Source: Burkholderiales bacterium (lineage in GTDB: Bacteria; Pseudomonadota; Gammaproteobacteria; Burkholderiales; Burkholderiaceae_C). From it: DNA of 64,000 nucleotides. Positions within the stretch are counted from its first letter, which is position 1. Each line of letters begins with the position of its first letter. Under the pieces are notes generated by a model. The model saw only the letters and a list, made by a program, of their open reading frames with translations, had not been told where the DNA came from and did not search any database. The DNA is taken from positions 186,001 to 250,000 of the forward strand of contig JAFKGD010000001.1 in the NCBI GenBank assembly GCA_017307855.1, written 5' to 3'. Below, one piece after another: positions 55,219 to 58,520 of the stretch. Made by a program: the position numbers and the translations under genes.

Positions 55219-56520
55219 ATGCCCGATGCCGCCTCCACCGCGACCCCGTCGCCCGCATCCGCCAGCCCGGCGGCCGCACATCCCACGCGCCGCCACATCC
55301 GCCTCACCTCGCACACCGGCGGCTTCGGCGCGCTGCCCATCGTGTGGGGCGCACCCACGGCGGCCGAGCGCGGGCCGGTGGTGGGGACCACCACCACGCG
55401 CGCTCATCGCAACGTGATCGGCACGCATTCCGGCTCGTACAGCGTGTACCGCGCGCTCGCCGTGGCGGCCGGCGCGCTCAAGCCCGAGCACAAGGCCGAC
55501 CTCACCAACACCTCGCCCACCGATGCCATCGGCCCGTATCCGCAGTGGGGCGAGCCGGGCCGCATCGTCAGCCTCGACCCCTGGGGCGCCGTGGTGGCCG
55601 ATGCCTTCGCCGCCGAGATGGCCGCCGGCTACGACATCCGGCCGACGATCGCCGTGACCAAGGCGCACGTCATCCTTCCCGAGGTCATCGAAGCCGTGCA
55701 GAAAGGCCGCCTGAAGGCCGACGGCAAGTTCCTGCTGCCCGGCGGCGGCGCGGTGGTCACCAAGGTGGCGGTGGAGCCCGTGTGGTACCTGCCCGAGGTG
55801 GCGAAGCGTTTCAACTGCTCCGAGGCCGATCTGCGCCGCGTGCTGTTCGAGGAAACCGGCGGCATGTATCCCGAGCTGGTCACGCGCAGTGATCTCGAAG
55901 TCTTCCTGCCGCCCATCGGCGGGCAGACGCTCTACATCTTCGGCAACCCGCGCGACCTGGCCGACACCGGCGTGGAGCTCACCGCGCGCATCCACGACGA
56001 ATGCAACGGCTCCGACGTGTTCGGCTCCGACATCTGCACCTGCCGCCCCTATCTCACGCACGCCATCGAGGAGTGCATTGCCGGCGCGCAGCGCGGCGGC
56101 GTGGGCCTGATCGCCTACAGCCGCAAGGAAGGCCGCGCTTTGGGCGAAGTCACCAAGTTCCTGGTCTACAACGCACGCAAGCGCCAGGTGGGCGGCGACA
56201 CGGCCGACCAGTACTTCGCCCGCACCGAATGCGTGGCCGGCGTGCAGGACATGCGTTTCCAGGAGCTCATGCCTGACGTCTTCCACTGGCTGGGCATCCG
56301 CAAGATCCACCGGCTGGTGTCGATGAGCAACATGAAGTTCGACGCCATCACTGGCTCGGGCATCGAGATCGGCGAGCGCATCAACATCCCCGACGAACTC
56401 ATCCCCGCCGACGCGCGCGTCGAGATGGACGCGAAGATGGCCGCAGGCTACTTCACCCCGGGCGCCGTGCCCGACACCGAAGAACTCAAGAAGGCCAAGG
56501 GCCGGGGACTCACCGAATGA
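55219..56520 (+). CDS. urc1: Urc1-like protein (GTP cyclohydrolase II family)
   Basis: A 433-residue protein. The second half (about 222-400) is a GTP cyclohydrolase II (RibA) domain with the zinc cysteines Cys262, Cys273 and Cys275 (DECNGSDVFGSDICTC) and the EGRALG loop near 304-309. The first ~220 residues are a distinct domain absent from RibA. This fusion-like form next to Urc4 and uracil phosphoribosyltransferase identifies Urc1, which in the yeast Lachancea kluyveri acts on UMP in uracil breakdown rather than in riboflavin synthesis. The start is ATG 55219, preceded by TGAGGA. Its stop overlaps the next start (ATGA). Confidence 0.9.
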   Translation: MPDAASTATPSPASASPAAAHPTRRHIRLTSHTGGFGALPIVWGAPTAAERGPVVGTTTTRAHRNVIGTHSGSYSVYRALAVAAGALKPEHKADLTNTSPTDAIGPYPQWGEPGRIVSLDPWGAVVADAFAAEMAAGYDIRPTIAVTKAHVILPEVIEAVQKGRLKADGKFLLPGGGAVVTKVAVEPVWYLPEVAKRFNCSEADLRRVLFEETGGMYPELVTRSDLEVFLPPIGGQTLYIFGNPRDLADTGVELTARIHDECNGSDVFGSDICTCRPYLTHAIEECIAGAQRGGVGLIAYSRKEGRALGEVTKFLVYNARKRQVGGDTADQYFARTECVAGVQDMRFQELMPDVFHWLGIRKIHRLVSMSNMKFDAITGSGIEIGERINIPDELIPADARVEMDAKMAAGYFTPGAVPDTEELKKAKGRGLTE

Positions 56521-57803
56521 CGCAGGCACCCATCGTCTCTTCCGCACCCGACACCGACACCCGGGCGCCGCAAGGCGCCGCCGCCCACCTGCGCAGCACG
56601 CGCGCCGTGCGCGAGCGCGCTTCCGGCCTGCTGGCGCGTGCCCGCGCCGACCAGTCCATCTGGTTCACCATCGACGATGCGGCCATGGCCACGGCTGCCG
56701 ACGAAGTGGCCGCCGCCACGAAGTCGCGCTACCCCGGCCTGCGCATCCCGTACCACAGCCGCTGGCGCCACTTCGAGGCCGGCGGCATTGACCGCCGCGC
56801 CGAACTCGACCGCCTGCTGGGCGACGACGCCACCGCCTATACGCGCGCCCGCGCCCACATCGATCTGGCGCTGGTGAGCGTGCTGCTCGACGCCGGCGCC
56901 GGGCCGGACTGGAAATACGTCGAGTCGGCCAGCGGCCAGACTTTCACGCGATCCGAAGGGCTGGGCGTGGCGAGCTTCCATGCCTTCACCTCGGGCCTCT
57001 TCTCCAGCAACCCTCAGCGGCCGCTGCAGGCCGATGCCGCCGGCCTGCGCGGCGTCATCACCGACCACCTGGCGCGCGCCTTCCAGGTCAGCGAAGCCAA
57101 TCCGCTGGTGGGGCTGGCCGGCCGTGCCACGCTGCTGCGCCGCCTCGGCGAGGTGCTGCACGCGCAGCCCGAGGTCTACGGACCCGATGGCCGCCCAGGC
57201 GCGCTGTTCGACGAGATGGCCAACGCGATCGGCGGCGAGATCCCGCCCACGGCCGAGTTCGAACTGCACGACCTGCTCGAGACCCTGCTGGCCACGCTCT
57301 CGGGCATCTGGCCGGCGCAGAACGCCATCGACGGCGTGCCGCTGGGCGACTGCTGGCGCCACGGCGGCGTGCCCGGCCCCGGGCTCACCGCAGGCTGGAT
57401 GCCGTTCCACAAGCTGAGCCAGTGGCTCACCTATTCGCTGATCGAGCCCTTCGAATGGGCCGGCGTGAAGGTGCGTGGGCTCGATGCGCTCACGGCGCTG
57501 CCCGAATACCGCAACGGCGGGCTGCTGCTGGACACCGGCGTCATCGTGCCGCGCGAGGCCGATTTCGCCACGCGCACCTGGCAGGCCGGCGACGAGTGCA
57601 TCGTCGAATGGCGCGCCCTGACCGTGGCCCTGCTCGACGAGATCGCGCCGCTGGTGCGCGACCGGCTGGGCCTCTCGGCCGATCGCATGCCACTGGCCTG
57701 CGTGCTAGAAGGCGGCTCCTGGGCCGCCGGCCGCGCCACCGCCCAGCGCCTGCGCGGCGGCAGCCCGCCGCTGCTCATCGACAGCGACGGCACCGTGTTC
57801 TGA
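56517..57803 (+). CDS. urc4: Urc4/Urg3 family (DUF1688) protein
   Basis: A 428-residue soluble protein of DUF1688, the Urc4/Urg3 family. Typical segments are SIWFTIDDAAMATAADEV, RIPYHSRWRHFEAGGIDR, WKYVESASGQTFTRSEGLGVAS, and LSQWLTYSLIEPFEWAG followed by LTALPEYRNGGLLLDTGV. In Lachancea it is needed for uracil use and probably acts after Urc1 on a ribosylurea-type intermediate; its exact chemistry is not settled. The overlap with urc1 and the upp gene just after it support a catabolic unit. Confidence 0.9.
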   Translation: MTQAPIVSSAPDTDTRAPQGAAAHLRSTRAVRERASGLLARARADQSIWFTIDDAAMATAADEVAAATKSRYPGLRIPYHSRWRHFEAGGIDRRAELDRLLGDDATAYTRARAHIDLALVSVLLDAGAGPDWKYVESASGQTFTRSEGLGVASFHAFTSGLFSSNPQRPLQADAAGLRGVITDHLARAFQVSEANPLVGLAGRATLLRRLGEVLHAQPEVYGPDGRPGALFDEMANAIGGEIPPTAEFELHDLLETLLATLSGIWPAQNAIDGVPLGDCWRHGGVPGPGLTAGWMPFHKLSQWLTYSLIEPFEWAGVKVRGLDALTALPEYRNGGLLLDTGVIVPREADFATRTWQAGDECIVEWRALTVALLDEIAPLVRDRLGLSADRMPLACVLEGGSWAAGRATAQRLRGGSPPLLIDSDGTVF

Positions 57804-57881
57804 CCTGCCGCGCACCCCGGCTGCGACAATCCCGCCCCAGCCCGTTTTCATCCGCAACCCTCACCGCCGAACGATTCCAGC

Positions 57882-58520
57882 ATGAGCAGCAACAACAACG
57901 TCCACGTCATCGACCATCCCCTGGTGCAGCACAAGCTCACGCTGATGCGCCGCAAGGACGCGTCCACCAACAGTTTCCGCCGCCTGCTCAATGAACTGGC
58001 TTCGCTGATGGCCTATGAAGTCACGCGCGACATGCCCATGCAGGAGATCGAGGTCGAGACACCGCTGGAAACCATGACCGCCAAGGTCATCGACGGCAAG
58101 AAGCTGGTCTTCGTGTCGATCCTGCGCGCGGGCAACGGTATCCTGGAAGGCATGCTCAACGTGGTGCCGGGCGCACGCGTGGGCCACATCGGCCTGTACC
58201 GCGACCCCAAGACGCTGACGGCCGTCGAGTACTACTTCAAGATGCCCGGCGAGATGGAAAACCGCGACATCGTCGTGGTCGACCCGATGCTGGCCACCGG
58301 CAACTCGGCTGTCGCCGCGGTGGAGCGCCTGAAAGAGCTGCGCCCCAAATCGATCAAGTTCGTCTGCCTGCTGGCCGCGCCCGAAGGCGTGAAGACGCTG
58401 CAGGACGCCCACCCCGACGTGCCGATCTACACCGCCGCCATCGACCGCGAGCTCAACGATCACGGCTACATCCTGCCGGGCCTGGGCGACGCGGGTGACC
58501 GCATCTTCGGCACCAAGTAA
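57882..58520 (+). CDS. upp: Uracil phosphoribosyltransferase
   Basis: A 212-residue enzyme that converts uracil and PRPP to UMP. The start [23 protein letters not shown], the PRPP loop [15 protein letters not shown] (130-144) and the C-terminal [11 protein letters not shown] are diagnostic. Normally a salvage enzyme, here it follows Urc1-Urc4 by 78 bases on the same strand; in the URC pathway UMP made by this enzyme is the substrate for ring opening (the role called URC6 in yeast). It may therefore serve both salvage and breakdown. Confidence 0.96.

Follow-up and report, generated by a model that had tools for sequence, protein, structure and literature searches.

What joins a GTP-cyclohydrolase-II-like protein, a DUF1688 protein and a uracil phosphoribosyltransferase in a single bacterial operon? 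The question is raised by the genes urc1, urc4 and upp, which lie in a 64,000-nucleotide stretch of DNA from a Burkholderiales bacterium (the window; positions 186001–250000 of contig C2 in a genome of 4.99 Mb in 17 contigs). All three open reading frames (ORFs) are intact, adjacent and on the + strand: urc1 (55219..56520) encodes 433 residues, urc4 (56517..57803) 428 residues and upp (57882..58520) 212 residues. An ATGA overlap joins urc1 to urc4 and upp begins 78 bases past urc4, so that the ORFs and junctions bear out the gene set described in an earlier, sequence-only reading of this DNA. That reading assigned the genes to the URC pathway of uracil catabolism, and we consider it likely that the operon is a bacterial form of this pathway, taking nitrogen from uracil (and cytosine). 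The earlier statement that URC is known mainly from yeast holds for its description, but the available text of one report already places the pathway in many bacteria (PMC3869809). The operon thus belongs to a known pathway, to which we add a predicted kinship between Urc4 and the glycosidase Qng1, a sigma-54 promoter match and the presence of Rut genes in the same genome.

The three proteins belong to the expected families. Upp matches UPRTase (259 bits) and TIGR01091 (283.5 bits against a cut-off of 208.35), and Urc4 matches PF07958 (DUF1688) with 489 bits against a cut-off of 25. Urc1 carries two Pfam domains, both above their cut-offs: PF12471 (GTP_CH_N; 265 bits, residues 26–212, 55294..55854, + strand) and a weakly matching cyclohydrolase-II-like domain, PF00925 (53 bits, residues 253–388, 55975..56382, + strand). 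The former is the extra domain that the earlier reading had noticed in Urc1, and it is N-terminal.

Urc1 and Urc4 are tightly coupled in genomes. A set of 398 Pseudomonadota genomes contains 26 with PF07958 and the identical 26 with PF12471, neither domain occurring alone; the two are always on the same contig and strand, with 0.68–0.89 kb between the domain matches. These genomes span 16 of 213 genera; the tiny hypergeometric value for the co-occurrence overstates its independence because the genomes are related. A scan for Urc4, with one genome per species, returned 83 relatives; 80 of these were retained as loci. The best Urc4 matches were in Variovorax, Pseudorhodoferax and Hydrogenophaga, which probably places the host within or close to the Comamonadaceae, and the 80 loci come from Burkholderiales, Mycobacterium and its kin, Gordonia, Nevskia, another gammaproteobacterium and Bradyrhizobium. 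The gene after urc4 is upp at every one of the 80 loci, and 79 show the full order urc1-urc4-upp; at L013 the contig begins inside urc4. Three loci (L029, L031 and L038) have a partial or split urc1; that of Ramlibacter terrae (L029:8653-9944) is in two pieces in different frames of a complete genome, either a sequencing error or decay. Homology, co-occurrence of Urc1 with Urc4, conserved gene order and a separate riboflavin gene (below) support the URC assignment, as do the cytosine deaminase and transporter genes that adjoin the operon in some relatives.

In NCBIfam and the PDB, the Urc1 family goes under another name. Its NCBIfam model, NF005536 (796 bits, cut-off 403), is named GTP cyclohydrolase II, and the PDB already holds a full-length homologue under the same name (7eev and 7ej3, aligned to Urc1 residues 15–431 with 812 bits); our literature search found no paper naming 7EEV. 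Against Escherichia coli RibA (chain 2bz0), Urc1 residues C262, C273, C275, Y317, D344 and R346 align with C54, C65, C67, Y105, D126 and R128, which we take to be the three zinc cysteines followed by three catalytic residues. The retained zinc cysteines had been pointed out from the sequence alone, and all six positions are invariant in 77 Urc1 sequences, comprising the window and 76 of the 79 fetched (short sequences were dropped: L031 and L038 near contig ends, and L029, split by a frame change).

These two database names count against a uracil-directed Urc1, and together with the retained zinc and catalytic residues they would suit an ordinary riboflavin GTP cyclohydrolase II that merely lies next to upp. 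Urc1, however, differs from RibA in its additional PF12471 domain, in its linkage to Urc4 and Upp and in falling far short of the curated RibA cut-offs (58.7 of 148 bits for NF001591; 47.6 of 205.85 bits for TIGR00505). The genome encodes a separate RibBA on contig C6 above its cut-off (588 bits against 513), and the N-terminal domain of Urc1 occurs only together with Urc4 in the 398 genomes. We therefore regard a riboflavin enzyme at this locus as very improbable. Judged from sequence comparison, riboflavin is served by the separate RibBA and probably not by Urc1, and the whole Urc1 family has probably been misnamed as GTP cyclohydrolase II. The marker domain of this family is present in 26 of the 398 sampled Pseudomonadota genomes.

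The chemistry of Urc4 was approached through its predicted fold. Prediction from the single sequence was unusable (predicted local distance difference test score, pLDDT, of 37), whereas AlphaFold2, supplied with 81 aligned Urc4 proteins, gave a model with pLDDT 93.1 and a predicted template modelling score of 0.91. When this model, which is a prediction and not a solved structure, was compared with a PDB library using Foldseek, all 11 matches at E ≤ 0.001 were chains of Qng1/DUF2419, and the following match had E 0.59. The best Qng1 match reached E 2.8e-10 with probability 1.00, and template modelling (TM) scores were 0.68–0.76 by target and 0.54–0.62 by query length; alignments spanned 397–411 columns, gaps included, with 15–21% identity. 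Qng1 is the queuosine-5′-monophosphate N-glycosidase (PDB 7u07, 7u91 and 7ugk), described by its PDB titles and by the title of the Qng1 paper as an N-glycosidase acting on a nucleoside 5′-monophosphate.

Profile comparison points to the same relationship. For the Qng1 profile, nine loci that pass the Pfam cut-off were taken from the phylum to which a Mycolicibacterium genome belongs, and 7 of these were aligned. With hhalign, the Urc4 and Qng1 profiles aligned with 81% probability (E 1.2e-5, 274 columns, 24% identity), against 0.2% for Urc1 with Qng1 and 0.05% for Urc4 with Urc1 as controls. The alignment pairs Urc4 Lys299 (codon 57411..57413, + strand) with Qng1 Lys199 and Urc4 Glu330 (codon 57504..57506, + strand) with Qng1 Asp231 in the numbering of chain 7u07, the two active-site residues of Qng1 mutated in deposited structures 7u5a (K199C) and 7ulc (D231N). 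In Urc4, K299, Q302, E330, Y331 and R332 are identical in all 81 proteins. When 6151 ORFs were searched with the Qng1 profile, Urc4 proteins filled the whole top 10, 19 of the first 20 places and 28 of the first 40, the first non-Urc4 protein having E 2.2. The resemblance of the model to Qng1 and the alignment of K299 and E330 with Lys199 and Asp231 indicate that Urc4 is probably a ribosylurea-5′-phosphate N-glycosidase. It is the predicted fold and the aligned residues that carry the proposed relationship; similarity in sequence is weak.

Several results pull in the opposite direction. The Foldseek superpositions have root-mean-square deviations of 4.4–5.9, and at the acidic position Urc4 has Glu (E330) where Qng1 has Asp (D231). 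The Qng1 profile search gave no Urc4 protein under E 0.033, and Urc4 proteins drop to 39 of the top 81; conversely, when the Urc4 profile was searched against 6077, the 7 Qng1 proteins were all absent from the top 15. Sequence and profile searches of the PDB with Urc4 yielded nothing meaningful. Urc4 lies below the Pfam threshold of the Q_salvage family (PF10343); at E ≤ 1 that model picks up 25 of the 81 Urc4 proteins, the best at 0.0027, and misses the Urc4 of the window. In the text available to us, the yeast papers name ribosylurea rather than its 5′-phosphate for the Urc4 step (PMC7530994).

A second interpretation keeps the Qng1 fold and gives Urc4 another reaction: its substrate would be free ribosylurea or an earlier intermediate, or it would be an amidase, with an unlinked enzyme freeing the urea. 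The weak sequence similarity and the change from Asp to Glu would fit such a divergence, as would the greater length of Urc4, which exceeds Qng1 by about 100 residues (428 against 315–344). Urc4 also differs from Qng1 in its gene context, which is that of uracil and not of queuosine salvage. Yet the alignment matches the Lys and the acidic position, each invariant across the 81 Urc4 proteins, the reported yeast conversion of ribosylurea to urea is itself an N-glycosidic cleavage, and among the 45 ORF clusters listed, the most frequent outside the operon is the cytosine deaminase, at 32 loci. We consider this alternative unlikely, though a good deal less so than a riboflavin role for Urc1. The broader proposal, which we hold to be somewhat probable, is that DUF1688 and DUF2419 form one nucleotide N-glycosidase superfamily in which Urc4 is a ribosylurea-5′-phosphate glycosidase, and that Urc1 and Urc4 excise the uracil ring purely by hydrolysis, with ribose phosphate passing back to phosphoribosyl pyrophosphate (PRPP). 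A literature search whose coverage left out most subscription papers found no paper linking DUF1688 to Qng1, and it does not settle the priority of that link.

The Qng1 family itself turned up in 10 of 296 genomes from the phylum to which the Mycolicibacterium genome belongs, 9 of them above the cut-off. It was not found in 299 Pseudomonadota genomes, a search in which no control gave a signal, so that absence does not follow, nor in 4 genomes from among the fetched urc loci. In two genomes of the actinobacterial phylum (L096 and L097), the Qng1-family gene adjoins an ORF that by eye looks like a PfkB/ribokinase-type sugar kinase.

The substrates, products and order of steps that we infer are as follows. 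GTP cyclohydrolase II hydrolyses two C–N bonds around C8 of GTP. In the scheme proposed here, Upp would convert uracil and PRPP to uridine monophosphate (UMP), and Urc1, acting as a zinc cyclohydrolase, would hydrolyse two C–N bonds of UMP to give malonic semialdehyde and ribosylurea-5′-phosphate; by our own arithmetic, UMP + 2 H2O = ribosylurea-5′-phosphate + malonic semialdehyde balances without redox. The malonic semialdehyde may then be reduced to 3-hydroxypropionate. Urc4 would cut the N-glycosidic bond of ribosylurea-5′-phosphate to release urea and ribose-5-phosphate, giving overall UMP + 3 H2O → malonic semialdehyde + urea + ribose-5-phosphate, after which urease could liberate ammonia from the urea and ribose-5-phosphate could go back to PRPP. 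Phosphorylation of the substrate, the order in which bonds are broken and the identity of the C3 product are putative elements of this scheme. The accessible portions of the yeast literature give urea and 3-hydroxypropionic acid as products of URC (PMC3869809) and report that URC4 turns ribosylurea into urea (PMC7530994), an N-glycosidic hydrolysis and thus the reaction type of Qng1, on which the Urc4 reaction proposed here draws. A 2020 paper, in its available text, calls the steps from uracil to ribosylurea uncharacterised (PMC7530994). URC is one of few known routes that destroy pyrimidines, and the predicted fold with its two candidate catalytic residues makes the chemistry of the DUF1688 enzyme assayable.

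Sequence upstream of urc1 suggests when the operon would be used. A sigma-54 (−24/−12) type promoter match, TGGCACCGTCCTTGCT (55122..55137, + strand), starts 97 bases before the urc1 ATG and is the sole exact match in the window to TGGCACN5TTGCW, which we take to be the sigma-54 consensus, with 0.13 expected. An alternative, longer urc1 ORF opens at 55042; we prefer the ATG at 55219 because the longer ORF begins upstream of the promoter match. Usable upstream sequence was available for 75 of the 79 relatives with urc1, and the window brings the set to 76 regions. The site is exact in 7 of these (the window, L010, L024, L025, L027, L039 and L081) and, with up to one mismatch allowed, present in 16, compared with none and one, respectively, on the reverse strand; coding and shuffled controls gave no match within one mismatch. 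The 15 relatives carrying the site are all Burkholderiales or Betaproteobacteria. Taken from the DNA, the match points to nitrogen control of the operon, which the sigma-54 promoter would turn on in nitrogen shortage, and it ties the operon to nitrogen scavenging. A palindrome, GCACCN5GGTGC (55099-55113), resembles what we presume to be the NtrC-site consensus; we do not claim it as an NtrC site, as chance alone would give 0.32 occurrences in the window, and of the 16 upstream regions that carry the sigma-54 site, that of the window is the only one to have the palindrome exactly.

The operon might instead serve mainly uracil salvage, with Urc1 and Urc4 unrelated to nitrogen acquisition. Upp is a salvage enzyme, and the genome already has Rut genes for degrading uracil. 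Set against this are the sigma-54 promoter match, a urease alpha gene (951 bits, cut-off 680; the search covered the alpha subunit), the linkage in part of the relatives to genes for cytosine deaminase and an importer, and yeast evidence, in the text available, that uracil serves as a nitrogen source (PMC7530994). A salvage role is in our estimation improbable. For the URC assignment with nitrogen acquisition, some observations are nonetheless unfavourable. The sigma-54 site is present in only 16 of the 76 upstream regions, and in 4 of those (L004, L023, L037 and L046) it has one mismatch and lies far upstream or at an extrapolated start, so that these may reflect chance or start errors. No importer gene stands beside the operon in this genome. 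Of 14 control genomes, none has DUF1688 and one, Corynebacterium glutamicum, has a PF12471 (GTP_CH_N) match, which falls below its cut-off.

The linked genes were counted in the 70 loci whose downstream sequence reached 8 kb or more. A cytosine deaminase-like gene follows on the operon's strand in 34 of them; each of the four Bmp-type ABC importer parts occurs in 14, and 13 loci combine all four parts with the cytosine deaminase. No match to any of these five genes was obtained in the actinobacterial loci at the threshold used, and the URC core therefore seems to be three genes. The genome studied here has its cytosine deaminase outside the window (C2:254786-256174, or L088:4786-6174; 770 bits, cut-off 438), on the same strand and 10.3 kb past upp. 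As this gene sits downstream of urc1-urc4-upp in 34 of the 70 relatives, other genes were probably inserted between upp and the cytosine deaminase here.

Rut and URC coexist in this genome. The Rut pathway (rutABCDEFG) likewise uses uracil as a nitrogen source, acting on free uracil with unrelated proteins. A RutA match above its cut-off lies on contig C12, not within the urc operon, in a rutABCDF cluster (C12:109600-113368, or L086:5601-9369) where rutA, rutB, rutC and rutD exceed their cut-offs and rutF falls just under (250.5 of 254.75). These genes would mask a simple uracil-growth test of a urc1 or urc4 deletion. RutA is present in 27 of the 398 Pseudomonadota genomes; just 4 have both RutA and Urc, with 1.8 expected (p 0.09), from which we conclude neither attraction nor exclusion. 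Two dihydropyrimidinase genes pass a cut-off; a search with PF01180 found no dihydropyrimidine dehydrogenase, its two above-cut-off matches being PyrD and a third, partial match scoring 22 bits, and the reductive uracil pathway is accordingly not counted. Of the two other routes that the sequence-only reading had proposed to look for, the Rut genes were thus found and the reductive route is left uncounted.

The same families make up the fungal systems, in which Lachancea kluyveri URC1/URC4/URC6 and Schizosaccharomyces pombe urg1-urg2-urg3 comprise a cyclohydrolase-II-like protein, a uracil phosphoribosyltransferase and a DUF1688 protein, the S. pombe genes being clustered and uracil-induced according to the portions of the papers available (PMC2174524, PMC3869809, PMC7530994). 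Unlike the yeast genes, those described here are organised as a bacterial operon, in which urc1 and urc4 overlap by ATGA and a sigma-54 promoter match lies upstream, in a genome that also has rut genes; the urea outlet is probably urease here and is urea amidolyase in yeast.

Other genes near these loci are noted for completeness. A succinate-semialdehyde dehydrogenase gene (58560-60056) and an upstream acyl-CoA ligase gene were excluded as parts of the operon, being on the opposite strand. Two genes for Bmp-type binding proteins lie about 3 and 5 kb beyond the rut cluster (C12:116373 and C12:118572), and one sampled genome (G691:C9:71434-81057) has two RutA copies whose starts are about 8.6 kb apart. 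Within the window, 50878-54921 on the − strand holds genes for a family III CoA-transferase, a MaoC-like dehydratase and an AMP-binding ligase and resembles an acid-degradation cluster.

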